Position numbers and translations under genes: made by a program. A stretch of 64,000 nucleotides of DNA from Nitrospiraceae bacterium (GTDB taxonomy: Bacteria; Nitrospirota; Thermodesulfovibrionia; UBA6902), in NCBI GenBank assembly GCA_003599275.1, contig QZJG01000051.1, positions 1 through 64,000 on the forward strand, written 5' to 3'. Numbering within the stretch: position 1 is the stretch's first letter; every line of letters starts with the position of its first letter. Below the pieces are notes generated by a model. It was not told the origin of the DNA, did not search any database, and saw only the letters and a list, made by a program, of their open reading frames with translations. Positions 10,711-60,002 of the stretch are shown in pieces.

Positions 10711-11787
10711 ATAAGAATACTTTATCTTAATATATTAAATCCCACACATGGATCTACCTGCCGGGCAAGAAACCTTTCCAATCTCTTCTCCAAAGTTGCA
10801 TTTGTAATTTATATTGAAGCCTCTCATGTAAAATCTTTTTTTAAGGGGACTTCTTCCTTCAGGCTTATGGAGATATCGTTTGACTTTCTCCGGCGCTCCA
10901 TATCAACCGACTATGATGTCCTGTTCCTGCAGAAGACATGGATATTTACCTTTCCATGTGTGCTGGCTGCCAAAATCAGGGGTAAAAAAGTGGTGATGGA
11001 CATGGATGACCTGGATTCTTTTTGGCAGCATAACCGCATAAAAACGGTTCTGACCATGCTGGGAGAGAAGGTAATGCCGTATTTTGCCGACGCCCTTACT
11101 ACTCACAATAAATATTTAATGAGTTATTTGGAATCCCGCTTTAAAAGGCCGTTATTTCTGTTGCCCCAGGGCGTGGAAACAGGGCTGTTTGACCCCGCTC
11201 ATTTTAACAGGGAAGAAGAAAAGAAAAGGCTCGGACTGACGGACAAAACCGTCTTATGTTTTTTAGGCTCCTTTACAGTCGGCAGCGCAAGGGACCTTGA
11301 CGCTATCATAAAGGCCTTCTCTGAAGTTTCCCGTGAAATTGACGAGGCGGTCCTGATGATCATAGGCGGCGGCGGGCCTTTAGAGGAGGCTTATCTTAAA
11401 ATGATAGAGGACATGAACATAAAATCGAAAACTATTGTTACAGGACATATGGACCAGGAAAATATTCCCGGATATCTGAGTGCCTGCGATTACGGGCTTA
11501 TCTTTATGCGCAATGACCTGGCCAATCAAGTGAGAGTCTCCCTGAAATTAAGGGAATATCTTTCCATGGATTTGACGGTTATAGGACATGTAGTGGGTTC
11601 TTCAAAAGACGACTTGGGTAAACAGTGTTTCTTATGTGAAGAAAATGTAACAGATTTTGCCGAAACGATCAGGAAAGTGATAAAATACAAACTCAAACAT
11701 AATACAACCCATGAATTTGTCAATAATAAATATGACTGGAATTCATTTTTACCTCATGTAAAAAACTTTTTAAATACTATTCACTGA
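10711..11787 (+). CDS. GT4-like glycosyltransferase, apparently starting at ATA
   Basis: The conserved body (KKVVMDMDDLDSFW, FLGSFTVGSARDLDAIIKAF, YGLIFMRNDLANQ) belongs to GT-B glycosyltransferases. The first ATG is at 10867, but the frame stays open upstream, and its translation RILYLNILNPTHGSTCRARN looks like the first Rossmann strand of this fold. No ATG, GTG or TTG lies in that extension. A strong AGGAGG (10700-10705) is followed after 5 bases by ATA at 10711, giving 358 residues. Either ATA is used, or an ATG start has mutated (or been miscalled) and the gene is weakly expressed. The acceptor C-terminal GT-B domain is intact. Donor and acceptor are unknown. Confidence 0.75.
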   Translation: MRILYLNILNPTHGSTCRARNLSNLFSKVAFVIYIEASHVKSFFKGTSSFRLMEISFDFLRRSISTDYDVLFLQKTWIFTFPCVLAAKIRGKKVVMDMDDLDSFWQHNRIKTVLTMLGEKVMPYFADALTTHNKYLMSYLESRFKRPLFLLPQGVETGLFDPAHFNREEEKKRLGLTDKTVLCFLGSFTVGSARDLDAIIKAFSEVSREIDEAVLMIIGGGGPLEEAYLKMIEDMNIKSKTIVTGHMDQENIPGYLSACDYGLIFMRNDLANQVRVSLKLREYLSMDLTVIGHVVGSSKDDLGKQCFLCEENVTDFAETIRKVIKYKLKHNTTHEFVNNKYDWNSFLPHVKNFLNTIH

Positions 11788-11900
11788 ATTAAACCATAAA
11801 CGTGTTTTCTGTCCTGAAACATTCGCTGTTGCAGGTTATGAATATTTGGAAAAACAAATCATGTAATTCATGGTGTTCATCTTTATCCAATGGAGAATAA

Positions 11901-13361
11901 ATGAAAATTGCATTTGTGGACGGACCCTGGCCTGGTCATGGCCATCGTACCCAGCGGTGGCCCCATAAAAATCCGGGGGGGAATATTAATCCGCCTCCGC
12001 TGTTTCAGATGTATGCGGCATCGGTTGCAAGACAGAAAGGCGCGGAAGTCAGGCTTTGGGACTCCCCGGCACAGGGATACGGATATGAAACATTGATGGG
12101 CGAACTTACTGGGTTTGCGCCACAGATAGTAGTCCTCAATACCAGCACAACCAGTTTTGACCATGATCTGAAATGCATCCGTCTCATAAAAGACAAGTTG
12201 GACACGTTCCTGGTTGCAGTAGGACCTCACGTCACCGCGCTGTACAAATCCGTTATGGAAGACGTTCGTGAACTTGATGCAATAGCCCTGGGCGAATACG
12301 ATGAAACCATAGCTGATATTGCCGGGAACCTGTCCGATTTGACAGTGGTCCCCGGCATAGTTTTCCGTAAAGGCAAAGAGATACTCATTACAAAAGAACG
12401 TCCGCTTATTTCAGATCTCGACAGCCTGCCTTTCCCTGCGTGGGACCTGGTGGACATTAATCTTTACTGGGAATCCACTTTTCCAAAGAGCCGGAAACCC
12501 GTTGCTACACTTATGAGCAGCCGCGGCTGTGCTTTCCGCTGTTCTTATTGTCTATACCCCCAGGTCCTTTTCAGGCACAAGCTTCGTTACAGGAAAATAG
12601 AGCGGGTCATAGACGAGATCGACTGGCTTGGGAAAAATTCCGGGGCGCGTTTCTTTTATTTTGAAGATGACAACTTCACCGGTTCATGGAAGCGGGTGGA
12701 GTCTTTTTGCAATAAACTTCTCGAGCAAAAGAAATCCATACACTGGGCATGCCTGTCACGCATAGACGGGGTCACTGAAGAAAGACTGCGGCTGATGAAG
12801 AAGGCGGGATGCTTCCTTATTAAATATGGAATTGAATCAGGGGTGCAGGACACGCTCGATCATATTTCCAAAAAAACGAGTCTTGAGAAAATAGAATACG
12901 CCTTTAAACTAACAAATAAAGTCGGTATGATGACCCACGGGACCGTAATGATGGGCGCACCGAATGATACTATGGAGTCCATCAGACAGACGCGGAATTT
13001 TGTCCGCAGGATTTCACCTGATTCGGTGCAATTCAGCATATGCACGCCCCTGCCCGGCACAGAATTCTGGGACGAGTGCGTCAAGGAGGGCTGGCTCGAC
13101 TATTCGAAATGGGAGGATTTTGACGGTGTCTGCGGAGGGACCCTGAATTATCCTTCTTTAAGCAAAGAAAAGATCCATAAGGCAATAAAAGATTCATACC
13201 TCCATTATTATTCATCCGTTCCCCATATACGCCAGAGGCTCAGGAGGCTGATTTTCGGGCCGGAGCGTTTTTCCCAGTTTATACGAAATTTCTGGCTGTT
13301 GAGAAGGCTGTTTTCCGTTCTAAGGGAAAAAGCAGGCGAGAGATTTGCGAGGTCCAGATGA
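11901..13361 (+). CDS. B12-binding-domain radical SAM protein (first of two)
   Basis: This is a 486-residue enzyme of the cobalamin-binding radical SAM class (BchE/HpnP-like). Residues about 1-150 form the Rossmann-like B12 domain. The radical SAM core starts with SSRGCAFRCSYCLYP near residue 210, where CxxxCxxC binds the 4Fe-4S cluster; GSWKRVESF and KYGIESGVQD lie further on. The His of the DxHxxG B12 motif is not seen, as in many of this class. Family members methylate or rearrange unreactive carbons. In this locus it could modify a sugar or lipid precursor. It is preceded by GGAG and overlaps the next gene by 4 bases. A homologue lies at 34187-35662. Confidence 0.9.
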   Translation: MKIAFVDGPWPGHGHRTQRWPHKNPGGNINPPPLFQMYAASVARQKGAEVRLWDSPAQGYGYETLMGELTGFAPQIVVLNTSTTSFDHDLKCIRLIKDKLDTFLVAVGPHVTALYKSVMEDVRELDAIALGEYDETIADIAGNLSDLTVVPGIVFRKGKEILITKERPLISDLDSLPFPAWDLVDINLYWESTFPKSRKPVATLMSSRGCAFRCSYCLYPQVLFRHKLRYRKIERVIDEIDWLGKNSGARFFYFEDDNFTGSWKRVESFCNKLLEQKKSIHWACLSRIDGVTEERLRLMKKAGCFLIKYGIESGVQDTLDHISKKTSLEKIEYAFKLTNKVGMMTHGTVMMGAPNDTMESIRQTRNFVRRISPDSVQFSICTPLPGTEFWDECVKEGWLDYSKWEDFDGVCGGTLNYPSLSKEKIHKAIKDSYLHYYSSVPHIRQRLRRLIFGPERFSQFIRNFWLLRRLFSVLREKAGERFARSR

Positions 13362-15055
13362 GACAGGTTGTCGTACTGGGGCTGGATGCGGCAACACTGG
13401 AAATAATAAACCCACTGATGGAAGAAGGCCTGTTGCCTAATTTCCAATCTATCTGCCGGCGGGGAGTTCACGGCGCACTGAGATCGACACTTCATCCTTT
13501 AAGCCCGCCTGCATGGTCCTCTTTTATAACAGGCAAGAATCCCGGCAAACATGGAATCTATGATTTTGTGGTCCATAAACCCGGCTCTTATGAATTGCTG
13601 TACACAAACGGAGGCATGCGCAAAGGTAAATCTTTATGGCGGATATTGTCGGATGAGGGGAAAAAAGTCGCTGTAGTAAATGTACCGATGACGTATCCCC
13701 CGGAGAACGTTAACGGGGTCATGATTTCTGGTTTTGATTCCCCCGGAGTTGATTCCGACTTCATCCGTCCCGGCTCGGTATACAAGGAAATTACGAGAGA
13801 CCTCGGTACTTATCTCCTGAGAGATTATCCCCAGGGACATACACCGGCGAGTTTTATTGAACATATTGAAGAACTTTTCGAATTTCACAAAAAGCTGACT
13901 TTTTATATATTGGAAAATTATGAATGGGATTTTTTTATGATCGTATTCAGCGTCCTTGACATAGTCCAGCACGGTTACTGGCAATACATGGACCCGGCCT
14001 TTACAGGTATTTCCGCAGAAGACAGAAAAAAGTTCGGGAATGTCATCAGAGACTTTTATATAAAGACAGACGGACTGCTGGGAGATCTGCTCGAAAAGGT
14101 GAAAGACAAGAACCTGATCATTATGTCCGACCACGGCGCAGGGCCCTGTTACAAGGCCATTTTCATAAATAACTGGCTGAAGGACATCGGATTATTAGAA
14201 TACAAGAGAAGCAGTAGAGATGGTAATGTTTCGTCGGGAATTAAAGACATGGCATTTAATGTTCTTGCGCAAATCCATTACCAGATTAAAAACAGGGTCT
14301 CTCCCGAAGGACTGGAACGGCTGAAGAGGGCATTCCCCGGTCTGCGTCACAAGGTGAAATCAAGACTTGTTTTTGGTGAAATCGACTGGGACCGCACCAA
14401 AGTGTATTCCTTTGGAAGAGAAAGCACCAATCTTTTTATAAACATGAATGGAAAATTCCCAGGGGGAATTGTGATGCCCGGCAGAGAATACGACGAGCTG
14501 ATTTCTTTTTTAAAAGAAAAACTGATGGAGCTCAGGGACCCTGACAGCGGAGAGCCTGTTGTAGAAGGAATTTACAGAGGCAGTGAAATATACCACGGCG
14601 AGTCCATGGAGTCAGCTCCGGACCTTTTGATTACCTGGAGAAACAGCGAATATACATCCTGGCCGGGATACAACGACCGGAACAGAAAGATTTTTGAAAC
14701 CAGCCTTGACCACAGTGATTATTCGGACTGGTCCCAGTTGCAAAAAGGCGGCAACCACAGACCCTATGGCATAGTCTTCATGGACGGGGAAGGCATTAAG
14801 CGTAACGAGGTAATTAACAGCGCGAGGATCATCGATCTTGCCCCTACAATTTTATACTGGATGGGCTTGGCTATTCCTGACGATATGGATGGAAAGGTCT
14901 TGCTGGATGCCTTTGATGATGCTTATAAAGCAGGAAACTCCCCCCAAAAAAGCGCAACTGCCGGGCTCCAGCCTGCTGATTCTTCAGAAACGATATATTC
15001 TGAAGAAGAAAAAAAAGCTATTGAAGAAAGATTGAAGAGCCTCGGTTATGTCTGA
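13358..15055 (+). CDS. AP-superfamily phosphohydrolase/phosphomutase-like protein, copy 1
   Basis: This is a 565-residue, COG3379-like member of the alkaline phosphatase superfamily. The candidate active site is complete: Asp10 (GLDAAT), a Ser49 nucleophile in LSPPAW, the Asp201/His205 pair in DIVQHGYW, Asp258-His259 in MSDHGAGP, and a late His467 in NHRPYG. There is no signal peptide or membrane helix, so it should be cytosolic. The C terminus ends in LKSLGYV, a tail shared by all six copies. Relatives hydrolyse or transfer phosphate mono- and diesters; the substrate is unknown. It overlaps both neighbours, by 4 bases upstream and 8 bases downstream. Confidence 0.88.
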   Translation: MRQVVVLGLDAATLEIINPLMEEGLLPNFQSICRRGVHGALRSTLHPLSPPAWSSFITGKNPGKHGIYDFVVHKPGSYELLYTNGGMRKGKSLWRILSDEGKKVAVVNVPMTYPPENVNGVMISGFDSPGVDSDFIRPGSVYKEITRDLGTYLLRDYPQGHTPASFIEHIEELFEFHKKLTFYILENYEWDFFMIVFSVLDIVQHGYWQYMDPAFTGISAEDRKKFGNVIRDFYIKTDGLLGDLLEKVKDKNLIIMSDHGAGPCYKAIFINNWLKDIGLLEYKRSSRDGNVSSGIKDMAFNVLAQIHYQIKNRVSPEGLERLKRAFPGLRHKVKSRLVFGEIDWDRTKVYSFGRESTNLFINMNGKFPGGIVMPGREYDELISFLKEKLMELRDPDSGEPVVEGIYRGSEIYHGESMESAPDLLITWRNSEYTSWPGYNDRNRKIFETSLDHSDYSDWSQLQKGGNHRPYGIVFMDGEGIKRNEVINSARIIDLAPTILYWMGLAIPDDMDGKVLLDAFDDAYKAGNSPQKSATAGLQPADSSETIYSEEEKKAIEERLKSLGYV

Positions 15056-16748
15056 TAAACAAAAAGTTCTGGTTATAGGGATTGACGGCGCCACATTTGA
15101 CCTGATCGGCCCATGGATTAGAGAAGGTCATCTGCCGAACCTCGGCAGGATGATGAAAAAAGGGACGTCCGGCGAGCTTCAATCCACTCCTCTTTCCAAC
15201 AGCGCACAGGCTTGGTCCTCTTTTATTACGGGAAAGAACCCGGGCAAGCACGGGATATACGACTTTTATGAGCCACGCAGCGACAGTTACGGGGTTCGCT
15301 TTATAAATGCAAGTTACCGCAAGGGGAAAAGCCTGTGGAAGCTGTTAAGCGAAGCAGGCAGAAAAGCCGGTGTGATAAACGTCCCCATCACATATCCCCC
15401 GGAAACTGTCAACGGCTTCATTATACCGGGGCTTGACTCCCCCGGAATGGGTCCGGACTTCGTCTATCCGCCCGGGCTGATGGAAGAATTAACCGAGCAC
15501 GTGGGCCAATATATACTGGAGCCGGGAATATGGGGAAACATTCGCCAGGGCAAGCCCGACCTTGCCTTGCAAAATCTTTTAAAGATGGTGAAGGCAAGGA
15601 CCGCCGCTGCAACATATCTTATGACCCATAAAGAGTGGGACTTATTTATGGTCGTTTATACGGCCAGCGATAAAGTGCAGCACCATTTCTGGAAATACAT
15701 CGATCCTGATCGCCCTGAATCGAAAGTCAAGACTGCATATAGTGATGCCATATTTCAGGTCTATGTGGAGATAGACAGGGGGATCGGAGAGATGATTAAA
15801 CAGGCTGGAGATGCGTCTGTTATAGTCATGTCGGACCACGGAGCGGGTCCTTCGACCAGAAAGACCATGTATATAAACAGATGGCTTTCTGCTGAAGGAT
15901 TTCTTACCTTTAAAGACGTTCATAAATCCGCAGGCGGTTTCGGGCATTTCAAATATTTACTTGTGGACAGGACAAACAACTGGCTGAAGAAGATGCTTCC
16001 GAGGGGCGTAAAAGAAAGGCTGCTGCGTCTTTTTCCGAGGTTGCGCGACAGGGTGGAGTCCATGCTGTTTCTTCCCGGAATTGAGTGGAAAAAGACCGCC
16101 GCTTATTCCAGGGAAAATCACCCGGCAATTTATATCAACACCAATGGCAGAGAAATAGACGGCACTGTCAGTCCGGGGGAAGACTACAATAAAGTGCGAA
16201 ACAGGATTATTGAGAGGTTAAAGGCCCTCAGATGCCCTGATACCGGAGAACCGATAGCAGGCAGAATATACACCCGCGAGGAGCTTTTTAACGGCCCCGA
16301 TTCCATGAGGGCGCCTGACATAATATTCGAGTGGAATAAATATCAATATGTACACAGGCCGAGCGGAAGAGGGAACAATAAAGACTTTCTCGAAATATTG
16401 AAGGATGATGATCTGCTTAAATCGGAAAATTACAACAGGCCCAGCGGCATTCACAGAGATTACGGAATATTTGCAGGCTCGGGAAAAAATCTCGGCAAAA
16501 CAAGGACAGTCGAAAATATAAACATTTATGATATTGCCCCTACGATTTTATATCTGCTGGGGGTCCCGGTCCCGGAAGACATGGACGGCCGCATTATTGA
16601 AGATGCAATTGACGACGATTATTTAAAACAGAACTCTCTGGAAAAAATATCTTCTTCCGTATCGGATGGACAGTACCAGCATGTTTTTGATGCAGACGAG
16701 GCAAAGGTAATTGAGGACCGGCTGAAGGGGCTGGGTTATATCGATTAA
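15048..16748 (+). CDS. AP-superfamily phosphohydrolase-like protein, copy 2
   Basis: This 566-residue paralogue has the same layout. It has Asp13 (GIDGATF), nucleophile Ser52 (NSAQAW), Asp208 and His212 (DKVQHHFW), Asp263-His264 (MSDHGAGPS) and His469 (GIHRDYGIF). A block between the metal motifs, CPDTGEP-x-YTREELFNG, is shared by copies 1-5. It ends in LKGLGYID and is predicted cytosolic. Its start overlaps the end of copy 1 by 8 bases, and no distinct ribosome site is needed if coupled. The substrate is unknown; copies 1 and 2 sit between a radical SAM enzyme and the flippase. Confidence 0.88.
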   Translation: MSDKQKVLVIGIDGATFDLIGPWIREGHLPNLGRMMKKGTSGELQSTPLSNSAQAWSSFITGKNPGKHGIYDFYEPRSDSYGVRFINASYRKGKSLWKLLSEAGRKAGVINVPITYPPETVNGFIIPGLDSPGMGPDFVYPPGLMEELTEHVGQYILEPGIWGNIRQGKPDLALQNLLKMVKARTAAATYLMTHKEWDLFMVVYTASDKVQHHFWKYIDPDRPESKVKTAYSDAIFQVYVEIDRGIGEMIKQAGDASVIVMSDHGAGPSTRKTMYINRWLSAEGFLTFKDVHKSAGGFGHFKYLLVDRTNNWLKKMLPRGVKERLLRLFPRLRDRVESMLFLPGIEWKKTAAYSRENHPAIYINTNGREIDGTVSPGEDYNKVRNRIIERLKALRCPDTGEPIAGRIYTREELFNGPDSMRAPDIIFEWNKYQYVHRPSGRGNNKDFLEILKDDDLLKSENYNRPSGIHRDYGIFAGSGKNLGKTRTVENINIYDIAPTILYLLGVPVPEDMDGRIIEDAIDDDYLKQNSLEKISSSVSDGQYQHVFDADEAKVIEDRLKGLGYID

Positions 16749-16771
16749 TTCGCAGACAATATAAAAAACTT

Positions 16772-18244
16772 ATGAAACCCGGTGTAAAAATCGTAAAAAA
16801 CATCATTGCGTTAATAAGCGGACAGACTTACGGACTTATAATGAACCTTCTGTCTATCGGGATGGTTGCCCGGTACCTCCCCCTGAATGAATTCGGCGAC
16901 TATGGATATGTCCTGGCCATAAGTATGACATACGCAATTATTATTGATATGGGAACAAATCAAATTATGATTCGCGAGATAGTCAGGAGGAAGGATCTTA
17001 CCGGGAAAATTTTTTCTGCATGTTTCATGTTAAAGGCCTTTTTTTCAATTATCGGTTTCTTGCTGATTGTAATTACTGTTCATTTAACATCTGACAGCCG
17101 GCAGGTTTTAAATTCGGCATATATCTGTGCGCTGGGAATCGGGTTCTTTATGATGGGGGACCTTTTTGAAGACAGTTTTAAAGCATATGAGAAGATGAAG
17201 TATAATGCGTACCTCAAAATTATTGAGGAGACCAGCTTCATTGCCGGTATTTTTACCGTAGTATATTTTGATTTCGGAGTATACGGGGTTTTTTCCGCCC
17301 AGCTTCTGACATATGCGATCAGATTCGTGACCGGTTATATAATGGTCTCAAAAAACTTTTTTTCACCGCGTATAACCTGGGACCTGCCGACTATAAAATG
17401 GATATTAAAAGAGTCTTATCCCATAGGGATCAGCAAAATTTTCAGGAAGATAAGTCTTCGCATAGATACAATATTGCTCAAGATCTTCAGGACGCGGGAG
17501 GAAGTAGGTCTGTATCATGGCGTATACCGCATTATTATTGTCGCCCAGTTTATTCCAAGGAATATAACTGATTCCATCTTTCCATTATTTTCCAAATATA
17601 CGGATTCAAAAGTTTCCCTGAATGCTGCATTTGAGAAGTCTTTTAAATATATTTTCATTGTAGTTCTTCCGTTGATTTTCAGTGTTTTTTTAATGTCGGA
17701 TAAAATTGTGACTATGATTTTAGGCAATAAATTTTCAAGTGCATCTCCGCTCTTACGGCTATTAGTATTAGTATGGATTGTTACTTTTTTCAGTATCTTG
17801 TGCAATAAAATGCTTAATGCGTCAAACCATCAAAAACTTGCGACTATCGCTACAGGAATATGTTTAATCGTCAATGTGATATTGGACCTTGTCCTTATCC
17901 CCGGATTTGGTTATATGGGGGCCGGTATCGCAACCTGTGCGGCGGAAGTCGTTTTGTTTACAGTCAGCTTTGGCTTTGTTTATAAATACGTATGCAAGGT
18001 CAACATCCTGAAAGTAATTATCAAACCTCTTCTATGTGGCGGCATCGCAACGATTTCGGGGTTGTTTTTTACGAATGGTCTCTCTCATTATGCCTCTGTA
18101 ATCGGCATCATAACGAGTTGTACTGTTTATATGCTGTTGCTGATTGTCCTGAGTGTAGTTGAAAAAGAAGAGTTAATTATAATGAAAGAAGTGGTTTACA
18201 GCGCAAAGAATAAACTCTTTAAAACAGCTTCCTTAAAAGTGTAG
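16772..18244 (+). CDS. Wzx-type oligosaccharide flippase
   Basis: This is a 490-residue polytopic membrane protein of the polysaccharide-transporter (MATE-like) superfamily with about 12-14 helices. The N terminus (IVKNIIALISGQTYGLIMNL) and the central RTREEVGLYHGVYRI match Wzx/RfbX proteins, which flip undecaprenyl-linked oligosaccharides to the periplasmic face. Only one flippase is present in the window. It stands between AP-like copies 2 and 3. Confidence 0.9.
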   Translation: MKPGVKIVKNIIALISGQTYGLIMNLLSIGMVARYLPLNEFGDYGYVLAISMTYAIIIDMGTNQIMIREIVRRKDLTGKIFSACFMLKAFFSIIGFLLIVITVHLTSDSRQVLNSAYICALGIGFFMMGDLFEDSFKAYEKMKYNAYLKIIEETSFIAGIFTVVYFDFGVYGVFSAQLLTYAIRFVTGYIMVSKNFFSPRITWDLPTIKWILKESYPIGISKIFRKISLRIDTILLKIFRTREEVGLYHGVYRIIIVAQFIPRNITDSIFPLFSKYTDSKVSLNAAFEKSFKYIFIVVLPLIFSVFLMSDKIVTMILGNKFSSASPLLRLLVLVWIVTFFSILCNKMLNASNHQKLATIATGICLIVNVILDLVLIPGFGYMGAGIATCAAEVVLFTVSFGFVYKYVCKVNILKVIIKPLLCGGIATISGLFFTNGLSHYASVIGIITSCTVYMLLLIVLSVVEKEELIIMKEVVYSAKNKLFKTASLKV

Positions 18245-18261
18245 CCGGGTCAACTTTATTC

Positions 18262-19935
18262 ATGAAAAAACAAAATAGAGTAATTGTCATAGGACTGGAC
18301 GGAGGGACTCTGGACCTGATCGATCCCTGGATGAGCGCAGGGCATCTTCCAAACCTTAAAAAAATATCCGGATCGGGTGTCAAGGCCCCTCTTCGATCGG
18401 TTATTCTTCCATTTACTCCTCAGGCATGGAGCTCTTTTATGACGGGAGTAAACCCGGGGGTCCACGGCATTTTCGGCTTCAAGGAGATAAAACAGGGGAC
18501 CTATGGCTTTCAGTTTGTCAACCACAAAAAAATGCGGGTCAAAAACATCTGGAATTTATTAAGTGAGGCAGGGAAGAAGGTAATTTCAATTAATATTCCG
18601 ATGACGTATCCTCCTGAGCCGATTAACGGCGTAATGATTTCCGGAATGGACGCGCCCGGAGCGGAATCCGAATTTGTTTATCCTGCAGAGCTTAAAAAGG
18701 AAATATTCAATATAGCGCCCGGTTATACAATACATCTCCACGTCGGCGCCGGCTATCTCGATTCCGACAGCAAGCGCAGGGCCGGATTAAAAGGTCTTAT
18801 GGACATGGTGGAAAACCGTGAAAAGATTGTTCTCCATTTTCTGGAAAAATATGAATGGGATTTTTTTGCGGTCAACTTTGCTGCAACCGACCAGGTGCAG
18901 CACCATTACTGGGAATACATGAATAAGGAAAGTGAATTCAAAGATGCCGTTCTCAGGATATACAAGCGTGTTGACGAGGCCGTCGGGCGGATAACCCGGA
19001 AACTTGATGACCGGACCACTCTGTTTATTATGTCTGATCACGGGGCAGGACCGGCTTCCGACCGGGTCTTTTTTATAGACGAATGGCTGAGACAGAACAG
19101 ATACCTTGAATTTGCATCAAGGTCGCCGCTTAAAGGCGCCGTGAGGCAAACTGTCCGTTTGGCGCTGGACACCCTTTCCAGGAATATTTCATCAAACGCT
19201 AAAGACGGTCTGATGAGAAAATTCCCCGGCCTGAGAGTACGTTCCCAGGGGTTTATTCGCCGCTCACTGATTAAATGGTCTGACACCCAGGTTTTTTCCG
19301 GCGAGCATCCCGCTACTTTAAGGATTAACCTGAAGGGCCGGGAGCCGCAGGGGACCGTTGCCCCGGGGAAAGAAAAAGACGAGCTTTGCAAGAAGCTCAT
19401 TGACGAGCTGGAGAGTCTGGTAATTCCTGATACGGGGGAAAGGCTTGTCGAAAAAGTTTATCGTCGTGAAGATCTTTATCACGGCCCCTGTACCGGGATT
19501 TCACCCGACCTGTACATCATAACCAGGGATTTCTCGCATCAGGTCAGGGGAGGACCATATCCTCCGGGCCTCGGGTATAAAAAAGTGATTGAAAAAAAGA
19601 ACCACCGTGAATTTTTCGTTAACGGAGTACATCGTATGAATGGAGTGTTTATGGCGCAGGGGCCTGATATTGTTCCCGGTCTCTGCTCTCAGCATTTCAG
19701 CATAATGGACCTTTTCCCTTCCATCCTGTACTGTATGGGGCTGGAAATTCCCCTCGGTCTGGACGGGAAAATACTGGAATCCATCTTTGATAAGTCTTTT
19801 ATGGAAGCTAATCCCGCAAAATACATGGAACGGGACATCGCCAAAGCCGGCAATCCGGATGGACCGACTTATGAAAGCGATGAAGATTCCAGAAAGATAG
19901 AAAAGTCCTTAAGAGGGTTGGGATATCTGGATTAA
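18262..19935 (+). CDS. AP-superfamily phosphohydrolase-like protein, copy 3
   Basis: This 557-residue paralogue has Asp13 (GLDGGTLD), nucleophile Thr52 in FTPQAW, Asp210/His214 (DQVQHHYW), Asp259-His260 (MSDHGAGPA) and His457 (NGVHRMNGVF). The IPDTGERL-x-YRREDLYHG block is present. It ends in LRGLGYLD. No signal peptide is seen. It lies 17 bases after the flippase gene and 3 bases before copy 4. It differs from copies 1 and 2 in its middle region, so it looks like an old duplication. Confidence 0.88.
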   Translation: MKKQNRVIVIGLDGGTLDLIDPWMSAGHLPNLKKISGSGVKAPLRSVILPFTPQAWSSFMTGVNPGVHGIFGFKEIKQGTYGFQFVNHKKMRVKNIWNLLSEAGKKVISINIPMTYPPEPINGVMISGMDAPGAESEFVYPAELKKEIFNIAPGYTIHLHVGAGYLDSDSKRRAGLKGLMDMVENREKIVLHFLEKYEWDFFAVNFAATDQVQHHYWEYMNKESEFKDAVLRIYKRVDEAVGRITRKLDDRTTLFIMSDHGAGPASDRVFFIDEWLRQNRYLEFASRSPLKGAVRQTVRLALDTLSRNISSNAKDGLMRKFPGLRVRSQGFIRRSLIKWSDTQVFSGEHPATLRINLKGREPQGTVAPGKEKDELCKKLIDELESLVIPDTGERLVEKVYRREDLYHGPCTGISPDLYIITRDFSHQVRGGPYPPGLGYKKVIEKKNHREFFVNGVHRMNGVFMAQGPDIVPGLCSQHFSIMDLFPSILYCMGLEIPLGLDGKILESIFDKSFMEANPAKYMERDIAKAGNPDGPTYESDEDSRKIEKSLRGLGYLD

Positions 19936-19938
19936 TTT

Positions 19939-21579
19939 ATGACTGATCATAAAACGAAATTAATGGTCATCGGCCTGGATGGAGCAACATATGATCTGGT
20001 CCTGCCCTGGATCAAACAGGGGGAACTGCCGAACCTTGAAAAGCTTATTAATGAAAGCGCATGGTCCCCGCTGGATTCCACGCGCCCTCCCCTCACCTGC
20101 CCTGCATGGCCGGTTTTTTATACCGGAAAAAACCCCGGCAAGATAGGTGTCATAGATTTCCTGGGAGGCGAAGACGGCGAAAAAATAATTTCATACAACG
20201 ATATTAAAGGACTTGCATTCTGGGACGTGGCCGCCCGTCAGGGAATGAGATCTATCGTCATCAATGTCCCGATTACATATCCGCCCAGGATTGAAAACGG
20301 AATCCTGCTTTCCGGGATGCTCACTCCCCAGGGTAAACCTTTTTGCTCCTCAGAGGAAGTCATGAACAATATATCCGCTAATGTGGGGGAATATATTGTT
20401 GACCTGGATATCCTTACTTTAAGTTCTTTTGATCGCAGCAACTCCCTGAAATTGTTTTACTTCATGACGGAACAGCGTTTTAAGACCGCCATGTTTTTAA
20501 AAAATACACAGCCTCACGACATAATGGTTGTTGTATTTCAGGGTACGGATATAGTTTGTCATCGTTTGTGGAACAACCCAATGGAGGTCCTGAAGGTTTA
20601 CAGGTTAATGGACAAGTATATAGGTGAACTCTCAAAAGGTGTGGAATATTTGATGTTAATGTCGGACCATGGTTTTGCCGGCTATGAACGCGGAGTCCGT
20701 ATTAATCAGGTTTTATTTGAAAGAGGTGACTTGCAGCGCAAAAAGGCCGCTTATGATTCCGGCTTTACACACGGTTCGAAAGAGATATTGGAACATCGCT
20801 TCGGCGGTGATAAAGATAAAGGCCTCGATGTTATTAAACGTATCAATAAACTGGTATGGTATTCGGGTATTAACAGGTCATTCATAAAGAAATTGATAAA
20901 AAACGAAAAACTTCTTGAGAGACTTAAAAACATCGCGCCGTCAGTTACGAAAAAGTTTATTCCTCCCGACAGGTTTATAGTAGACCGTCAGAAATCCGCA
21001 GCTTACCTTCATTCGTCACGAACGAGGTCTATCTGTATTAATAACGATAATATTCCGTCCGGTATGTCGCCAGATTCATACAGGAAGGGACTGATTGATG
21101 ATCTACTGTCATTGAAAGATCCGGAAACGGGAAAACAGATCATTCCCAGGATATATAAACGCGATGAACTTTACTCCGGACCCTTTAAAGATAATTTCCC
21201 GGACCTTTTTATAGAAACTGACCCGACTTATACCGTTCGAGGGAATTTTGGGCGATCTGTTATTGAAAAGTTCCATGCTCCCAAATCCAGTCATGCTCAG
21301 GACGGGGTGTTTCTTTGTAACGGGCCCGGTATAAACCCGGGACATTATGCCCCCCACATCAGCATTCACGACCTGGCCCCTACCATACTGTACCTGCTTG
21401 GTCTTCCGGTCCCCAAAGACATGGACGGTAAAGTTCAGCTCGACCTCCTGGACAGTTCTGCAAGAAAGCAAATAGAATATATAGAGCAACCCTCTCACAT
21501 CAGCGAAGATACATCTATGAGCCGGGAAGAGGAAAATGAAATAATGAATAAGCTCAAGGCAATCGGTTATATGGAATGA
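19939..21579 (+). CDS. AP-superfamily phosphohydrolase-like protein, copy 4
   Basis: This is a 546-residue paralogue. AWSS, present in copies 1-3, is AWPV here, but alignment to nucleotide pyrophosphatases places the nucleophile three to four residues earlier, where Thr53 of LTCPAW is kept. The other ligands are Asp14 (GLDGATYD), Asp204/His208 (DIVCHRLW), Asp243-His244 (MSDHGFAG) and His452 (SSHAQDGVF). DHGAGP has become DHGFAG, and HG of the TGKNPGKHG loop is IG, so substrate binding probably differs from the other copies. It ends in LKAIGYME. Confidence 0.86.
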   Translation: MTDHKTKLMVIGLDGATYDLVLPWIKQGELPNLEKLINESAWSPLDSTRPPLTCPAWPVFYTGKNPGKIGVIDFLGGEDGEKIISYNDIKGLAFWDVAARQGMRSIVINVPITYPPRIENGILLSGMLTPQGKPFCSSEEVMNNISANVGEYIVDLDILTLSSFDRSNSLKLFYFMTEQRFKTAMFLKNTQPHDIMVVVFQGTDIVCHRLWNNPMEVLKVYRLMDKYIGELSKGVEYLMLMSDHGFAGYERGVRINQVLFERGDLQRKKAAYDSGFTHGSKEILEHRFGGDKDKGLDVIKRINKLVWYSGINRSFIKKLIKNEKLLERLKNIAPSVTKKFIPPDRFIVDRQKSAAYLHSSRTRSICINNDNIPSGMSPDSYRKGLIDDLLSLKDPETGKQIIPRIYKRDELYSGPFKDNFPDLFIETDPTYTVRGNFGRSVIEKFHAPKSSHAQDGVFLCNGPGINPGHYAPHISIHDLAPTILYLLGLPVPKDMDGKVQLDLLDSSARKQIEYIEQPSHISEDTSMSREEENEIMNKLKAIGYME

Positions 21580-21597
21580 AAATCGGGAGAACATTAT

Positions 21598-23301
21598 ATG
21601 AATGAACAAAAAGTTTTTATTCTCGGTCTGGACGGCGCGACATTCGACATCATCAATAAAATGCTTGAACAGGGTGAACTGCCGAATTTCAGGAAAGTCA
21701 TGAAGAAAGGGTCTCACTGCGCCCTGAATTCAACGTTCCTCCACCATTCTCCTCCGGCGTGGACTTCGTTTTCAACCGGCAGGGACCCGGGAAAACACGG
21801 CATTCTCGGTTTTATACAGATGGCAAATAACGCATACGGACTACAACTGGTCAACGGGATCGACAACAGGTCCTCAACCATGTGGGAGGAACTGACCAAT
21901 GAAGGCAGGAAGGTCATAGTTATGAATATCCCTATGACGTACCCTCCAAAACCTGTTAACGGCATCCTGATCAGCGGATTGGATACGCCAAGTTTAGATG
22001 TAGATTTTACATATCCTAAAAACATAAAACAGGAGGTCCTTCAAAATGCGCCGAATTACCAGATCAATCTGCACCTGGGAGGATATTTATATAACGATAA
22101 GAGGAAAATGAAAGGGTTGAATATTATCCATGAAAATATTGAAAGCCAGAGAAAAACCGTCCTGTACCTTATGGAGAAATATCCATGGGACATGTTTGCA
22201 GTCCGCTTTAACAGTCCGGACAATGTTCAGCACCAGTATTGGGCGTATATGGACGAAAAACATCCGGAATATAATCCCAGGGCTGACAGGAAACTGAAAG
22301 ACGCTATCTTCGGAGTATATCGCAAACTGGATGAGGTAGTAGGTGAAATCTATTCCCGGCTGGAGTCCGCAAATATAAATTTGATTATCATGTCCGATCA
22401 CGGGGCCGGGCCGCGCGTCGGGAAATCCATTTTTGTTAATGAGTGGTTGAAAGATATGGGTCTGCTTAGTCAAATCGGGAAAGAAAACAAATCAAGCTTC
22501 AGACGGTTATTGGATGATACAAAGTTTTTTGTCAAAGGGAAAATACTTTCATTTTTCCTGAAGAGCATCCCGCCGCATATCAAGGCCAAATTAACCGAAT
22601 TGGTCCCGTGGGCGGCAGCTAAAACAGCCAACTACCTGCGCTTTTCAGGACTGGACTGGGCAAATACAAGAGCGTTCATGGGTGAAGTTGAGGGCATCCG
22701 CATCAATCTGAAGGGTAAGTATCCCCAGGGCATAGTTGCAGAAGAAGAATATGAAAAACTCCGGGACAAGATCATCAGCAAAGCCAAAATGCTCAAAGAC
22801 CCGGAAACCGGCAACAATGCGTTTAAGGGAGTATACCGCCGGGAAGAGGTTTTCAAAGGAGACTGTACAGTCAATTTTCCCGATATTGTTTTGAAACCTA
22901 ATGACCTGTATTACCTGAGTCCGAAGTTTTTCCGCCGCAATGAAAAGAAGCCCGGAGTATATCTGGCGAATGACACGCACTGGCGTAAAATTTCCGGGTC
23001 CCACAGCCAGCACGGTATTTTCATAATCACCGGGCCGGATGTTAAACCTGACAATCAGATCGATGCCGCCGATATAATAGATATCTTTCCTACGGCTTTT
23101 TATCTTATGGGCGTTCCTGTATCGGATGACGTTGACGGCAAGGTGTTGTATAAATGTTTTAATGAGAATTTTGTAGATTCCAGGAAAGTTAAATTCAAAA
23201 AGTCGGATACAAAGACAAAGAGCGACGGTTCAGACATATATTCAAAAGAAGAACAGGATGAATTAATGAAAAGCCTGAAAGGATTGGGATATATCGGGTG
23301 A
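21598..23301 (+). CDS. AP-superfamily phosphohydrolase-like protein, copy 5
   Basis: This 567-residue paralogue carries Asp12 (GLDGATFD), nucleophile Ser51 (HSPPAW), Asp208/His212 (DNVQHQYW), Asp267-His268 (MSDHGAGPR) and His469 (SGSHSQHGIF). The block DPETGNN-x-YRREEVFKG corresponds to that in copies 1-4. It ends in LKGLGYIG. A GGGAG ribosome site precedes the ATG. The stop codon overlaps the GTG start of the FAD oxidoreductase gene. It is predicted cytosolic; the substrate is unknown. Confidence 0.88.
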   Translation: MNEQKVFILGLDGATFDIINKMLEQGELPNFRKVMKKGSHCALNSTFLHHSPPAWTSFSTGRDPGKHGILGFIQMANNAYGLQLVNGIDNRSSTMWEELTNEGRKVIVMNIPMTYPPKPVNGILISGLDTPSLDVDFTYPKNIKQEVLQNAPNYQINLHLGGYLYNDKRKMKGLNIIHENIESQRKTVLYLMEKYPWDMFAVRFNSPDNVQHQYWAYMDEKHPEYNPRADRKLKDAIFGVYRKLDEVVGEIYSRLESANINLIIMSDHGAGPRVGKSIFVNEWLKDMGLLSQIGKENKSSFRRLLDDTKFFVKGKILSFFLKSIPPHIKAKLTELVPWAAAKTANYLRFSGLDWANTRAFMGEVEGIRINLKGKYPQGIVAEEEYEKLRDKIISKAKMLKDPETGNNAFKGVYRREEVFKGDCTVNFPDIVLKPNDLYYLSPKFFRRNEKKPGVYLANDTHWRKISGSHSQHGIFIITGPDVKPDNQIDAADIIDIFPTAFYLMGVPVSDDVDGKVLYKCFNENFVDSRKVKFKKSDTKTKSDGSDIYSKEEQDELMKSLKGLGYIG

Positions 23302-24713
23302 GGGAAGGAACAACAGGGCATACATTTCTGGTACTGGGTGCGGGGCTTAGCGGTCTGTCCTGCGGCATCGGCCTTCTCGAAGCCGGGCATGATGTCACTA
23401 TTCTGGAAAAAGAACAGTCTGCCGGCGGACTATGCCGCAGTTTCAGGGCAAACGGATTCACATTTGATTATGGCCCTCATTTTCTTTTTGGACCCGGAAT
23501 CAAAACTGCATTAAAAGAGAATATTGTCCCTTCGTTCGATATTCCCCTTATCAACCGGAACGGGGAACGTATATTGGCCCGGGACCGGCTTTTTAAATTC
23601 CCGTTTGAACCCAAAAACATATTGAAGCACATGGAAAAGACCCGCATGCTGCCGGTATTAATAGACTTGGTGGCGTCTCACAGTTTCAGGAAAGCAGTAC
23701 CGGCCTCAAATCTTGAGGAATGGATCATCAATGCAGTCGGCAATAAAATTTATGATTATATTTGTCTGTCGGACTATGTGAAAAAACTGTACGGGCTGTC
23801 ACCCCGGGAAGTTTCCCCGAAGTGGGGAGAGCAGAAATTAAAATTTCTGTCCCGCTGGCGCAATAATAGTTTGCTGGTGATGGCATTGAATGCATTGAAA
23901 GAGGACAAAAAGCTGCAAAAGCAGATTGTTTCATATCCCCCGTCAGGAATTGACGCAATTCCCGGAAAGCTGGCAGAACGATATGCAGAGCTTGGCGGCA
24001 AAATAATATTCTCATCGCCTGTAGCGGCAATCCGGGAAAGGCACGACTGTGTGGAAGTGACCGGTCTGAATAACCGGACATTCAGCGCAGAATACCTGAT
24101 TTCTTCCATTCCCCTTACTGAACTGCTTAACAATACTTCTTCCGGCTCTGATAAAATCAACTCCGGGCTTATTATGCAATTAAGACACAGGAAAACGGTT
24201 TTTTTCCTCCTGTATTTTAATGCACCCAGGGTGATGAATTATCAATGCATCTATTTTACTCAACCGGATTATTTGTTCCGCAGGGTGACGGAATTCAGGA
24301 ATCTGAGCTCGTCGATGTCCCCTGCAGGCAAGTCTTCGCTATGTGTTGAAGTTACCTGTAACGAAAAGGAAGTAATTGATACTTCACTGGACAAAGTCCA
24401 TGCGCTTTTAAAGCAGTTGGACAAAAGCGGTCATTTCAATATTAAAGATTTTTCACATTATGATATATTGGATGTCCCTAATACTTACCCTGTATATACG
24501 GTTGATTATATGGACGTAATTAAAAAGGCCCTGGATTGTCTCAAGTCCTATAAGCGGATAATTTCCTTTGGACGGCAGGGACTGTTTTTTTACAATACGA
24601 TGAACAATTCCATAATGCAGGGCTACGCTTTGGGGCAGAGCTTTGGAAGCAAGCATGATTTTTCCTGCATTAAAGATGATCATTACAATAATCATGCGGC
24701 ACTTTTAAATTAA
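23298..24713 (+). CDS. FAD-dependent oxidoreductase, UDP-galactopyranose-mutase/protoporphyrinogen-oxidase-like
   Basis: This is a 471-residue flavoprotein with an N-terminal dinucleotide fold (VLGAGLSGLSCGIGLLEAG) and the ILEKEQSAGGLCRSF segment typical of FAD/NAD-binding_8 proteins. GPHFLFGPG follows. Members near polysaccharide genes often act on nucleotide sugars, as UDP-galactopyranose mutases do, but others desaturate lipids; the sequence does not decide. The start is a GTG overlapping the stop of AP-like copy 5 (GTGA), so it is in the same operon. The C-terminal domain carries no recognisable UGM signature, so the name is cautious. Confidence 0.72.
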   Translation: MREGTTGHTFLVLGAGLSGLSCGIGLLEAGHDVTILEKEQSAGGLCRSFRANGFTFDYGPHFLFGPGIKTALKENIVPSFDIPLINRNGERILARDRLFKFPFEPKNILKHMEKTRMLPVLIDLVASHSFRKAVPASNLEEWIINAVGNKIYDYICLSDYVKKLYGLSPREVSPKWGEQKLKFLSRWRNNSLLVMALNALKEDKKLQKQIVSYPPSGIDAIPGKLAERYAELGGKIIFSSPVAAIRERHDCVEVTGLNNRTFSAEYLISSIPLTELLNNTSSGSDKINSGLIMQLRHRKTVFFLLYFNAPRVMNYQCIYFTQPDYLFRRVTEFRNLSSSMSPAGKSSLCVEVTCNEKEVIDTSLDKVHALLKQLDKSGHFNIKDFSHYDILDVPNTYPVYTVDYMDVIKKALDCLKSYKRIISFGRQGLFFYNTMNNSIMQGYALGQSFGSKHDFSCIKDDHYNNHAALLN

Positions 24714-24742
24714 TTTTTCGGAATTTGGAGGCATAAACGCCT

Positions 24743-26152
24743 GTGTTAAAGCCAAAGATAAAAAAGACGATCAGATTTTTCAAAGGTTATATACATAACC
24801 GCAGTCTTGTGAAAAAGAAAAAAGGGGTCACCATTGAGAGCATCGATATCTCCCGCCTGAATAAATCAAAAATTATTCTCATGGGCATCGACGCACTTAC
24901 ATGGGAAATCATAAATCCTCTTATAAAAGACGGGAAGCTGCCGCATATCAGCTCTTTGATGCAAAAGGGAAGCTATGGGCCTTTAAAGACTTTATGTCCT
25001 GCCTTGTCACCGGAACTGTGGAGCAGCATCGGCACAGGCAAGCTGCCGCGCAAACACGGTATTGAAGGTTTCGTGACAAAAGACCCGGTGACAGGAAAAC
25101 TTGTTCCTTATACGTCCAATATGCGAAAGAGCAAGGCGGTGTGGGAAATTTTGGGCGACTATCAAAAGACGGTCGGCGTGGTTGGATGGTGGAACAGCTG
25201 GCCGGCGGAGCCTGTTAACGGCAACATGGTCTGTGGTATTTTGGGCTATAAAGTAAAAGACCTCGAAGGAGTAAAAAGAAACAAAAAAGCAACCGCTGAT
25301 TCATCGGACGAATTTGTTGAGATGACACGTAAATCGAGGCTTAGAACATCTTCATTTGAAAAACAGACATATCCTGAATCTCTTTTTGAGAATGTTAAAT
25401 CATTTATTCGGCCCAGTGAAAAAATTGACGACGTCCCTGCTTTTTTAAAGAACATCCGGAGCAATCCGGAAGCTCTGTCGGAGATTGAAAAAGACAGTCT
25501 GAGACTTATAACCGGCGTGTACAATATTGATCGTTCATATAAAGAAATTGCGCAATATATCAGCCGGCAATCAAATCCGGATTTTCTGACTTTCTATATG
25601 GCCGGTATAGATGTTGTCGGACACAAGTACTGGGCGTACATGGAGCCTGAGAGCTTTTCCACGCATATCAACAAAGATAAAATAGACCGTTACGGTATGC
25701 TCATTCGTAATTATTACAGGTATATCGATGAAACAATCGGTGAATTTTCAAATGCCGCTGATGAAGATACAATAATAGCCGTGGTATCAGATCACGGCAT
25801 GTCGCGGAATGAACGTACTTTCAGAAAAACCGGGATCAATTCCGCCAGGCATTTCAACGAAGACGGGATTTTCATATTTGCAGGCCCGGGGGTCCGAAAA
25901 AATAATCATGTGCGCAGTCTGTCATCAGTATTGGACGTTACCCCCTCGATTTTAGCATTATTGGGATTGCCGGTCGCCCTCGATATGGACGGCGATGTAA
26001 TACATGATATCCTGACCCCTGAATTCAAATCGCAGCATTCTGTAAAATATATAAAAAGTTTTGGTGACCGGAAATACAGCAGCACGCCTGTTGAATCGCC
26101 GGTTGATGATGAAATAAAGGAACGGCTGAGGAGCCTGGGCTATATCGAATAA
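24743..26152 (+). CDS. AP-superfamily phosphohydrolase-like protein, copy 6 (short, divergent)
   Basis: This 469-residue paralogue is the most divergent. A basic leader of about 40 residues precedes the usual first strand (ILMGIDALTWE, Asp50). The nucleophile is Ser89 (LSPELW), followed by Asp290/His294 (DVVGHKYW), Asp350-His351 (VSDHGMSR) and His370 (ARHFNEDGIF). The roughly 100-residue block with PDTGE and YRRE, present in copies 1-5, is missing. It still ends in LRSLGYIE. The start is a GTG, with GGAGG 11 bases upstream. It is the last AP-like gene before the ligase. Confidence 0.85.
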   Translation: MLKPKIKKTIRFFKGYIHNRSLVKKKKGVTIESIDISRLNKSKIILMGIDALTWEIINPLIKDGKLPHISSLMQKGSYGPLKTLCPALSPELWSSIGTGKLPRKHGIEGFVTKDPVTGKLVPYTSNMRKSKAVWEILGDYQKTVGVVGWWNSWPAEPVNGNMVCGILGYKVKDLEGVKRNKKATADSSDEFVEMTRKSRLRTSSFEKQTYPESLFENVKSFIRPSEKIDDVPAFLKNIRSNPEALSEIEKDSLRLITGVYNIDRSYKEIAQYISRQSNPDFLTFYMAGIDVVGHKYWAYMEPESFSTHINKDKIDRYGMLIRNYYRYIDETIGEFSNAADEDTIIAVVSDHGMSRNERTFRKTGINSARHFNEDGIFIFAGPGVRKNNHVRSLSSVLDVTPSILALLGLPVALDMDGDVIHDILTPEFKSQHSVKYIKSFGDRKYSSTPVESPVDDEIKERLRSLGYIE

Positions 26153-26169: not shown

Positions 26170-27564
26170 ATGTTCAGCAATAGCTTAATCACATATTCCC
26201 GTGAACGCGTGTGGATTTTAATACTCGCCGTATCACAGATAACTCTGGGTATCTTTTCTGCTGTTATGCCCCTGCAATATCTCCCTCTTGTGTTTAGCCC
26301 CCTTTTGTTAATAGCGATATATTACAGACCGCTTATCGGGTATCTCATACTCGTTTTTTTTCTGCCGAATTACGGGATAGACCTTTTCAAGATAGGGGGA
26401 CAAGCCGATGTCAGCTTGCTGGAACCGGCCGTATTTATAGCCTTCATAGGATTTGTCTTCTTTATTACAAAAGAAAGAAAATTAAACTTATCAATAACTG
26501 AAGTGGAATTTGCCATGTTCTTACTTTTCTTATGGGCGGCATTTTCCATCATCTGGACCCCTGTCCCGATAAGGGGAATTCAGCAGACCATTAAAATTTT
26601 AATCGGATTTTTCATATATTTCCTCTCAATAACCCTAATTAAGGACAGGCAAAATTTCAATGCCGTAGCCGGAGCATGGATAGTTATGGGGTTGGTTATT
26701 TCAATCCTCGGGGTTTACGAAACATTCACTACAGGCTTCCAGTCGGCGGCCTCCTACAGCTTTACATCCGGGTACGATAAAATACATAAAGATGTCCGTA
26801 CGACGGCAATGTTTGAAGGAGCGGACATGGTAGGGTTTCTGACATCGCTGGTAATCGTCCTTAATCTTACTTATCTTGTGTTTCTCCCCCGGGGGAAATG
26901 GAAGAACCTGCTGTTAATTATTCTTCCTCTCGCCTTATTTACTCTGATAACCGCAATGTCAAGGAAGAGTTTTGTGGCCTTGTTCGGCGCACTGATCTTC
27001 ATGCAATTTATGCTGAAGAAGAAATTTCTTAAAAAACTGTTCCCTGTCCTCCTTATCAGTTTCCTTGGCGGCATCGCTGCCATCCTGTATGCCGGGACAT
27101 ACGGTTTTTGGGAGGCCCTGTCTGAAAGAGTTATGTCGCTATTCATGCCGGTTGAAGAATCGATCAAATACAGGTTGATGGCATGGGCCGTAGGCGTTGA
27201 TATGTTTACTAACTCACCTTTAATCGGCAGAGGGTTGGGTTCTTTTTACCGGGAATCCCTGTTAGCAGGATCGCAACTTAATTTCCCTCATAATTTCTAT
27301 ATCTTCATACTCTCGGAATTAGGGCTGGTCGGCCTCTTTTTTCTGCTCTTCTGGTGGTTCCAGCTCGGTTCAAGCTTTGTAAGATTATTCAGAAATTGCA
27401 CAAATGATGAAACAAGGACAATAGCCGTCGGTCTGATAGCAGGACTTATCACAATCGCCCTGCATATGGCATTTCGCTCGTTTAGTCTCACGGACCCGAC
27501 TTTCTGGGGGTATATAGGATTGACCTCGGCTTTCCTGAAAATAAATTCCCGGAGGACAGGATAA
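26170..27564 (+). CDS. O-antigen ligase/polymerase-family membrane protein
   Basis: This 464-residue protein has about 12 hydrophobic helices and the Wzy_C-like region (AVGVDMFTNSPLIGRGLGSF followed by LNFPHNFYIFILSELGLVG). Such proteins polymerise undecaprenyl-linked repeat units or join them to an acceptor at the periplasmic face. It is the only candidate polymerase or ligase in the window, which suggests a Wzx/Wzy-type route. It sits 8 bases before the propeller protein. Confidence 0.88.
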   Translation: MFSNSLITYSRERVWILILAVSQITLGIFSAVMPLQYLPLVFSPLLLIAIYYRPLIGYLILVFFLPNYGIDLFKIGGQADVSLLEPAVFIAFIGFVFFITKERKLNLSITEVEFAMFLLFLWAAFSIIWTPVPIRGIQQTIKILIGFFIYFLSITLIKDRQNFNAVAGAWIVMGLVISILGVYETFTTGFQSAASYSFTSGYDKIHKDVRTTAMFEGADMVGFLTSLVIVLNLTYLVFLPRGKWKNLLLIILPLALFTLITAMSRKSFVALFGALIFMQFMLKKKFLKKLFPVLLISFLGGIAAILYAGTYGFWEALSERVMSLFMPVEESIKYRLMAWAVGVDMFTNSPLIGRGLGSFYRESLLAGSQLNFPHNFYIFILSELGLVGLFFLLFWWFQLGSSFVRLFRNCTNDETRTIAVGLIAGLITIALHMAFRSFSLTDPTFWGYIGLTSAFLKINSRRTG

Positions 27565-59908: not shown

Positions 59909-59917
59909 TTTAATTTC

Positions 59918-59999
59918 AGGGAGTAGGGTGAAGGGGGTAGGGTGTAGAATTGCAGTCTTTACTACCCCCTATCCCCTTCACCCTAATTCTCATCCTCTC
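59918..59999. repeat. CCCTACTCCCT-type tract within the hydrogenase-like operon
   Basis: A tract with GGGAGTAGGGTGAAGGGGGT and its inverse (ACCCCCTATCCCCTTCACCC), the only gap in the otherwise overlapping operon. The two halves can form a hairpin, so it could attenuate transcription between the HyfC-like and HyfE-like genes. Confidence 0.5.
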
Positions 60000-60002
60000 A
60001 CT

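Follow-up and report, generated by a model that had tools for sequence, protein, structure and literature searches.

Six genes of one branch of the alkaline phosphatase (AP) superfamily lie inside a single polysaccharide locus of a Nitrospiraceae bacterium, and we tentatively read their products, here AP1 to AP6, as cytosolic enzymes of AP fold that transfer a group to lipid-linked repeat units, probably as PAPS-dependent sulfotransferases. The window on which this is based is the 64,000-nucleotide stretch at the start of contig QZJG01000051.1. In the mechanism envisioned, the six would be metal-dependent, cytosolic enzymes of the NPP branch, active in the assembly of a Wzx/Wzy-type polysaccharide. 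Each would modify its own position of the lipid-linked repeat unit before the flippase carries that unit across the membrane. The likeliest reaction would be group transfer and not hydrolysis, and the likeliest group sulfate from PAPS, with a phosphate or phosphodiester group as the alternative.

Six divergent family members in one polysaccharide operon

A preliminary description, made from the letters of the window, had named six AP-superfamily reading frames of a single family, and profile search bears this out: all six are plus-strand genes (Table 1) whose products fall in PF01663, an NPP-branch family of the superfamily (E 1.7e-31 to 9e-45; 110-154 bits against a cut-off of 23), and none belongs to an unrelated family. 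Only about 13 PF01663 proteins are encoded in the whole 3.05-Mb source genome; against that number, the grouping of six within 12.8 kb is not a chance arrangement. The interleaving with a flippase, an FAD enzyme and a ligase is likewise confirmed and takes the form of a tight operon. From the radical SAM gene through the beta-propeller gene, adjacent plus-strand genes are separated by -8 to +29 bp, and because of this spacing AP1 to AP6 are probably co-transcribed with the flippase, the FAD enzyme and the Wzy_C protein.

Pairwise identity among the six is 26-38%, which rules out recent tandem duplication as their origin; on this comparison they are ancient paralogs or xenologs. Their reading frames are intact, and they are probably divergent, catalytically active enzymes.

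Table 1. The six AP genes and their neighbors in the window
Feature	Coordinates	Strand	Product and family	Remarks
Wzc-like protein	7167..9257	+	Chain-length/tyrosine-kinase protein	
CpsB/CapC	9254..9997	+	Phosphatase	
GT4	10867..11787	+	Glycosyltransferase	
Radical SAM	11901..13361	+	B12-binding radical SAM protein	Overlaps AP1
AP1	13358..15055	+	565 aa, PF01663	Nucleophile motif SPPAW; tail LKSLGYV; overlaps radical SAM gene upstream and AP2 downstream
AP2	15048..16748	+	566 aa, PF01663	Nucleophile motif SAQAW; AlphaFold mean pLDDT 91.6; NPP/PhnA-branch fold
Flippase	16772..18244	+	Wzx-type polysaccharide flippase, PF01943	
AP3	18262..19935	+	557 aa, PF01663	Nucleophile motif TPQAW; sister of AP5 (support 0.966)
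AP4	19939..21579	+	546 aa, PF01663	Nucleophile motif TCPAW; most divergent of the long copies
AP5	21598..23301	+	567 aa, PF01663	Nucleophile motif SPPAW
FAD enzyme	23298..24713	+	FAD-dependent amine-oxidase-like protein, PF01593	Best NCBIfam match the PRK07208 group, below cut-off
AP6	24743..26152	+	469 aa, PF01663; weaker PF00884 sulfatase match	Nucleophile motif SPELW; no cap
Wzy_C	26170..27564	+	O-antigen ligase/polymerase-like membrane protein, PF04932	
CGLA-like	27572..30457	+	961-aa secreted protein	Lambda-carrageenase-like beta-propeller plus middle domains
GT2	35659..36639	+	Glycosyltransferase	
Sugar transferase	38278..39648	+	Initiating sugar transferase, PF02397	
Wza-like protein	39783..40562	-	Polysaccharide export protein	

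Active site, fold, and C-terminal tail

In an alignment of 190 family sequences, AP1 to AP6 included, the residues D, S/T, D, H, D, H, H (early Asp, nucleophile, DxxxH, DH and late His) line up in all six and are near-invariant across the family; the late His is kept in 188. The claim that every copy retains a full set of candidate ligands holds for AP1 to AP5, which have the complete bimetal residue set, and is doubtful for AP6, where the late His is displaced by one residue from the family spacing (RHFNEDGI versus HxxxG[IV]). An ortholog of AP6 (L077) has Arg at this position, and the third metal site of AP6 is uncertain. The LGY tail described for the six is present in each of them but does not set them apart: it is a family hallmark, found in 150 of the 190 sequences (more than 90% in A2).

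None of the six nucleophile motifs (Table 1) conforms to the strict NPP motif (Thr nucleophile, Asn at +3, TFPN). Identity as formylglycine sulfatases is ruled out, since the C/SxPxR maturation motif is absent and Trp stands at the Arg position in all six. No close homolog with a solved structure was found for the AP proteins; the solved structures nearest to the AlphaFold model of AP2 are NPPs and the phosphonoacetate hydrolase PhnA (Foldseek E about 1e-14; PhnA TM 0.71 by target), while the AP6 model (pLDDT 79) matches both NPP and sulfatase structures. With the NPP/PhnA enzymes the AP proteins share the PF01663 profile, the fold, and the Asp, Ser/Thr, DxxxH, DH and late His residues. They differ in a cap domain, about 190 residues long, that separates DHG from the late His in AP1 to AP5, in having no signal peptide, and in the replacement of the Asn after the nucleophile by Ala or Leu and then Trp; the best structural matches are only about 11-15% identical to the AP protein.

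AP1 to AP5 contain no membrane helix or signal and no stretch with hydrophobicity above 1.6. AP6 has a single such stretch, at residue 395 and within the conserved core; its N-terminal extension, common to AP6 orthologs, is basic and amphipathic. LtaS, EptA and OpgB are AP-fold enzymes that use a Thr nucleophile for transfer instead of hydrolysis, but they are membrane-anchored and act outside the cytoplasm. AP1 to AP5 differ from them in lacking a membrane helix, and the membrane anchor plus extracytoplasmic domain of the LtaS/EptA type was found in none of the six.

Multi-AP loci and the link to sulfate activation

The locus is not the only one of its kind. A survey took in 51 loci, each at least 12 kb long, from a wide range of phyla and counted family members within about 10 kb: there was one AP gene in 24 loci, two in 18, three in seven, four in one and six in one. 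A Blastocatellia polysaccharide locus with six (L114), which also has a flippase and an AP6 ortholog, rules out uniqueness; AP6 orthologs in Blastocatellia/Acidobacteria are 48% identical. The window locus is thus the high end of a widespread, uncharacterized kind of locus, and the earlier statement that no described polysaccharide pathway is known to use such a set is not supported in that form, given the spread of multi-AP polysaccharide loci and an N-glycan cluster of Halobacterium salinarum that contains three AP-superfamily genes, one besides agl30 and agl31 (PMC11980604).

Multi-AP loci of Desulfobacteria (L111), Blastocatellia, Brocadia (L069), Nitrospirota (L091, L092) and haloarchaeal plasmids (L108) resemble the window in combining two to six APs with Wzx, GT4, FAD enzyme and Wzy_C in varying selections; they differ from it in the number and clade membership of the APs. 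On the plasmids a single record has up to five family matches, and glycan loci hold several of these; on an Anaerolineae contig two complete AP modules are fused in one 1079-aa protein. The full order AP-Wzx-FAD-WzyC-CGLA recurs only in the Desulfobacteria metagenome-assembled genome (MAG), with four APs; because this core order is conserved and the AP number varies, the APs resemble in their behavior those variable enzymes of such loci that define the polymer structure. A census of 113 neighbors of AP-rich loci returned mostly glycosyltransferases (22 GT4, 9 GT2), flippases and Wzy_C proteins, with no enrichment of genes for phospho-donor synthesis. A search of a phage collection gave no match.

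In the family tree AP1 to AP6 are scattered over different clades. A three-AP set in the clade order B-A-C (clade supports 0.999, 1.0 and 0.943) is orthologous and syntenic in two Nitrospirota genomes, Brocadia and a deltaproteobacterium, whose contig holds A and C only; a GT9 or beta-propeller gene usually lies in between. Such ordered sets support distinct roles for the copies. Conservation in close relatives, which the preliminary description had opposed to decay, gave a divided answer: congeners have no one-to-one orthologs of AP1 to AP6 in a search of 41 genomes, and yet no copy in the window is decaying. Because the congeners lack these orthologs, the locus is accessory or horizontally acquired. 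No AP6 ortholog was found in 296 Nitrospirota genomes, and no ortholog of the CGLA-like protein in those genomes or, G041 itself excepted, among 297 genomes from the G041 phylum. Since close relatives lack the locus and, among 593 genomes sampled, the CGLA-like gene occurs outside the window only in the Desulfobacteria MAG, the pattern points to horizontal spread.

The proposal of several distinct phosphate or phosphodiester steps survives in part. Non-redundancy of the copies is supported, as they lie in different clades with active sites kept and three-AP orthologs elsewhere; phosphate, however, had been assumed, and the strongest functional link found for the family is to sulfate activation. 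A sister PF01663 clade occurs in 25 of 301 Chloroflexota genomes; at 18 of its 28 loci there, ATP sulfurylase (Sat) and/or APS kinase is joined to the AP in one protein or encoded no more than 1.5 kb away. Two Chloroflexota proteins, 862 and 881 aa long, combine ATP sulfurylase with a PF01663 domain, and one Sat-PF01663 fusion ORF is followed about a dozen bases downstream by APS kinase. This fusion came to light through a check of long AP proteins. Other arrangements include a 740-aa protein that joins PF01663 to APS kinase and, adjoining Sat and AP, a fusion of APS kinase with a sulfatase-like AP protein. In Methylomirabilota, too, members of the sister clade neighbor APS kinase, and in polysaccharide loci of Verrucomicrobia they neighbor Sat-APS kinase.

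An AP-type tail (acidic residues plus LGY) is carried by the APS kinases of L149, L016, L021, L159-L161, L163, L165 and L180, of which L016 and L021 are near APs of the AP1-AP5 clades. As a strict marker of AP loci the tail was rejected, since for five of 30 sampled APS kinases with the tail no AP was detected in the surrounding 13-20 kb (in L216 and L219 the APS kinase itself is missing from the gene listing); taken alone, it is weak evidence.

The Sat/APS-kinase-linked clade (L149, L158, L165, L014, L013, L020) resembles AP1 to AP6 in its PF01663 profile, its catalytic set, its partial placement in polysaccharide loci and the AP-type tail of its partner APS kinase. Its AP part is shorter and without the LGY tail, and it is tied to PAPS synthesis, which the window locus is not: no sulfate-activation gene is found at the AP1-AP6 locus, and neither Sat nor APS kinase is fused or adjacent to the six. 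The source genome does encode Sat (contig C29) and APS kinase (contig C15), and in it a PAPS-reductase-domain protein with an AP-like tail lies directly upstream of another AP (L001, L089). We infer that AP1 to AP6 may have the sister clade's connection to sulfate, act as transferases and use lipid-linked sugars as acceptors; the step from that clade to the six is tentative, for they are only 27-32% identical to it, stand outside it in the tree, and have no sulfate-activation gene in the window.

An experimental parallel comes from archaea. Using deletion and heterologous expression, Zaretsky et al. 2025 report that Agl30 and Agl31 of H. salinarum (VNG1056C, VNG1057C) are AP-superfamily glycan sulfotransferases and that the two modify different sugars; Agl31 is cytosolic and Agl30 membrane-associated (PMC11980604). 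Like AP1 to AP6, they have an AP-superfamily core and come from a gene cluster for glycan assembly that holds several AP genes. They serve an archaeal N-glycan and not a Wzx/Wzy polymer, and their activity is demonstrated, whereas AP1 to AP6 are known from sequence. By published description, their nearest solved structures are sulfatases, compared with NPPs for AP2, and neither is placed in PF01663, one belonging to an arylsulfatase family and the other to none. Agl30 and Agl31 are a functional analogy for AP1 to AP6, not proof of membership.

Sulfate, phosphate, or hydrolysis

The argument for transfer onto a repeat unit draws on the conserved catalytic set, the NPP/PhnA fold, the operon with Wzx and Wzy_C, the glycan-related neighbors and the orthology of AP sets. 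For sulfate we count the fusions with Sat or APS kinase together with the 18 of 28 loci, the tails on APS kinases, the Sat and APS kinase of the genome, and Agl30/Agl31. Against sulfate stands the chemistry of the active site: a Ser/Thr nucleophile combined with a complete two-metal site is the classical equipment for transferring phosphoryl groups, not sulfuryl groups. In addition, the L031 locus of a relative contains an ordinary sulfotransferase as well, and a role as PAP phosphatase would also explain adjacency to Sat and APS kinase. Phosphate is the main rival as the group transferred, though on the unlikely side: each AP would draw on a nucleotide or lipid donor and, via a covalent Ser/Thr intermediate, pass on a phosphoryl or a phospho-alcohol/phospho-sugar group, giving a polymer with several phosphate-linked groups, much as LtaS and EptA do outside the cell. 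Retention of the nucleophile and all two-metal ligands, absence of the formylglycine sulfatase motif, fold neighbors that act on phosphorus, and the small number of glycosyltransferases relative to six APs would all suit phosphate. Yet neither the commonest neighbor families nor the annotated portion of the window include a CDP-glycerol, CDP-ribitol or other phospho-donor gene, and the strongest link at family level is the one to sulfate activation.

Hydrolysis is a less probable explanation. PF01663 enzymes of known function hydrolyze phosphodiester and phosphoanhydride bonds (PMC5133447) and the closest folds are NPPs, so that AP1 to AP6 could trim or proofread, cleaving nucleotide sugars or dead-end polyprenyl-diphosphate intermediates as pyrophosphatases or phosphodiesterases; this would leave unexplained both the locus-dependent AP number with its position-specific orthologs and the joining of family members to ATP sulfurylase and APS kinase in single proteins. 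It is more improbable still that the family does adenylyl-sulfate housekeeping in the manner of CysQ, removing PAP (or APS/PAPS) after sulfation or reduction, with AP1 to AP6 as such phosphatases or their relatives. By-product removal would also fit the Sat-APS kinase-AP operons and the AP beside a PAPS-reductase-domain protein, but a polysaccharide operon that has no sulfation gene would have little use for six different PAP phosphatases, and AP genes scale with glycan loci, not with sulfate assimilation. That the six are redundant duplicates with little specific function we consider very improbable: one family in six copies, and a set absent from congeners, might suggest it, but their divergence, intact frames and catalytic residues, and ordered orthologs elsewhere argue otherwise.

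A wider form of the sulfotransferase reading is doubtful, if worth stating. PF01663 proteins of bacterial and archaeal polysaccharide loci could be a widespread, unrecognized class of cytosolic, PAPS-using AP-fold sulfotransferases acting on lipid-linked repeat units, with a portable LGY tail that may recruit APS kinase; a six-AP operon would then sulfate up to six positions per repeat unit. Literature searches returned almost nothing on PF01663/COG3379 proteins of glycan loci, with COG3379 mentioned in a single full text, and nothing useful on AP-superfamily proteins with flippases or exopolysaccharides; the ten best-ranked papers on sulfotransferases, PAPS and APS kinase included none on such AP proteins. 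EboF of the ebo operon is also a PF01663 protein in a biosynthetic operon, but one with prenyltransferase and isomerase-like genes, and it is a separate lineage (PMC5133447).

Glycan loci of uncultured bacteria and archaea contain PF01663/COG3379 proteins in abundance, and under either chemistry the annotation "alkaline phosphatase family protein" is probably misleading for them. If sulfate transfer is correct, a large class of sulfated or phosphorylated polysaccharides made by prokaryotes would have escaped notice, their enzymes being annotated as phosphatases; phosphate transfer would instead mean a new set of cytosolic glycan phosphotransferases. The Sat and APS kinase fusions, as one-gene constructs, allow a direct test of sulfate transfer. 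Such AP sets may represent an overlooked class of enzymes that add sulfate (or phosphate) to polysaccharides.

Fusions of AP-fold domains

In four Chloroflexota loci (L149, L158, L165 and L170), ATP sulfurylase or APS kinase is joined to an AP-fold domain of the PF01663 or PF00884 type; our literature search found no published description of such fusions. A single Anaerolineae protein carries two complete AP-family modules in tandem.

The LGY tail on other proteins

The C-terminal LGY tail of the AP family is also present on small proteins of 66–83 aa, ribbon-helix-helix-like by eye, three of the four directly adjoining AP genes. In L001, L089, L107 and L052, a short AP without the tail is immediately preceded by an LGY-tailed PAPS-reductase-domain protein. 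In one Chloroflexota lineage (L186, L187, L189, L191 and L202), APS kinases bear the AP-type tail, and no AP was detected within the surrounding 13–20 kb.

Coordinates of fusion, tandem and tailed proteins, by locus
Feature	Locus	Position	Strand
Sat–AP fusion locus, Chloroflexota	L149	1723-4311 and 1094-1708	(-)
Tandem double-AP protein, 1079 aa, Anaerolineae	L044	1566-4805	(+)
Small LGY-tailed protein	L067	end 11815	(+)
Small LGY-tailed protein	L115	end 7387	(+)
Small LGY-tailed protein	L116	5770	(-)
Small LGY-tailed protein	L062	20348	(-)
LGY-tailed PAPS-reductase-domain protein	L001	626-1447	
LGY-tailed PAPS-reductase-domain protein	L089 (G000:C6)	12368-13189	
LGY-tailed PAPS-reductase-domain protein	L107		
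LGY-tailed PAPS-reductase-domain protein	L052		
Protein with central APS kinase domain, 686 aa	L154 (G000:C15)	7286-9367	(-)

The window and its own genome

Elsewhere in the window's own genome (G000), scattered APS-kinase-like fragments interrupted by stops (contig C12, about 11623-13194) are possibly a decayed copy. The 686-aa protein carries its APS kinase domain centrally; its N-terminus is P-loop-like and its C-terminus repeat-like.

Two B12-binding radical SAM proteins (11901-13361 and 34187-35662) flank the AP block; HpnJ/BchE-type models are closest to the former, with scores well under their cut-offs. A Complex I/Mrp-antiporter-type cluster (56221-62986, minus strand) lies downstream of the polysaccharide region. 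Within the AP operon, a secreted, lambda-carrageenase-like beta-propeller protein of 961 aa (27572-30457) has, among the genomes sampled, a homologue in only one Desulfobacteria MAG.
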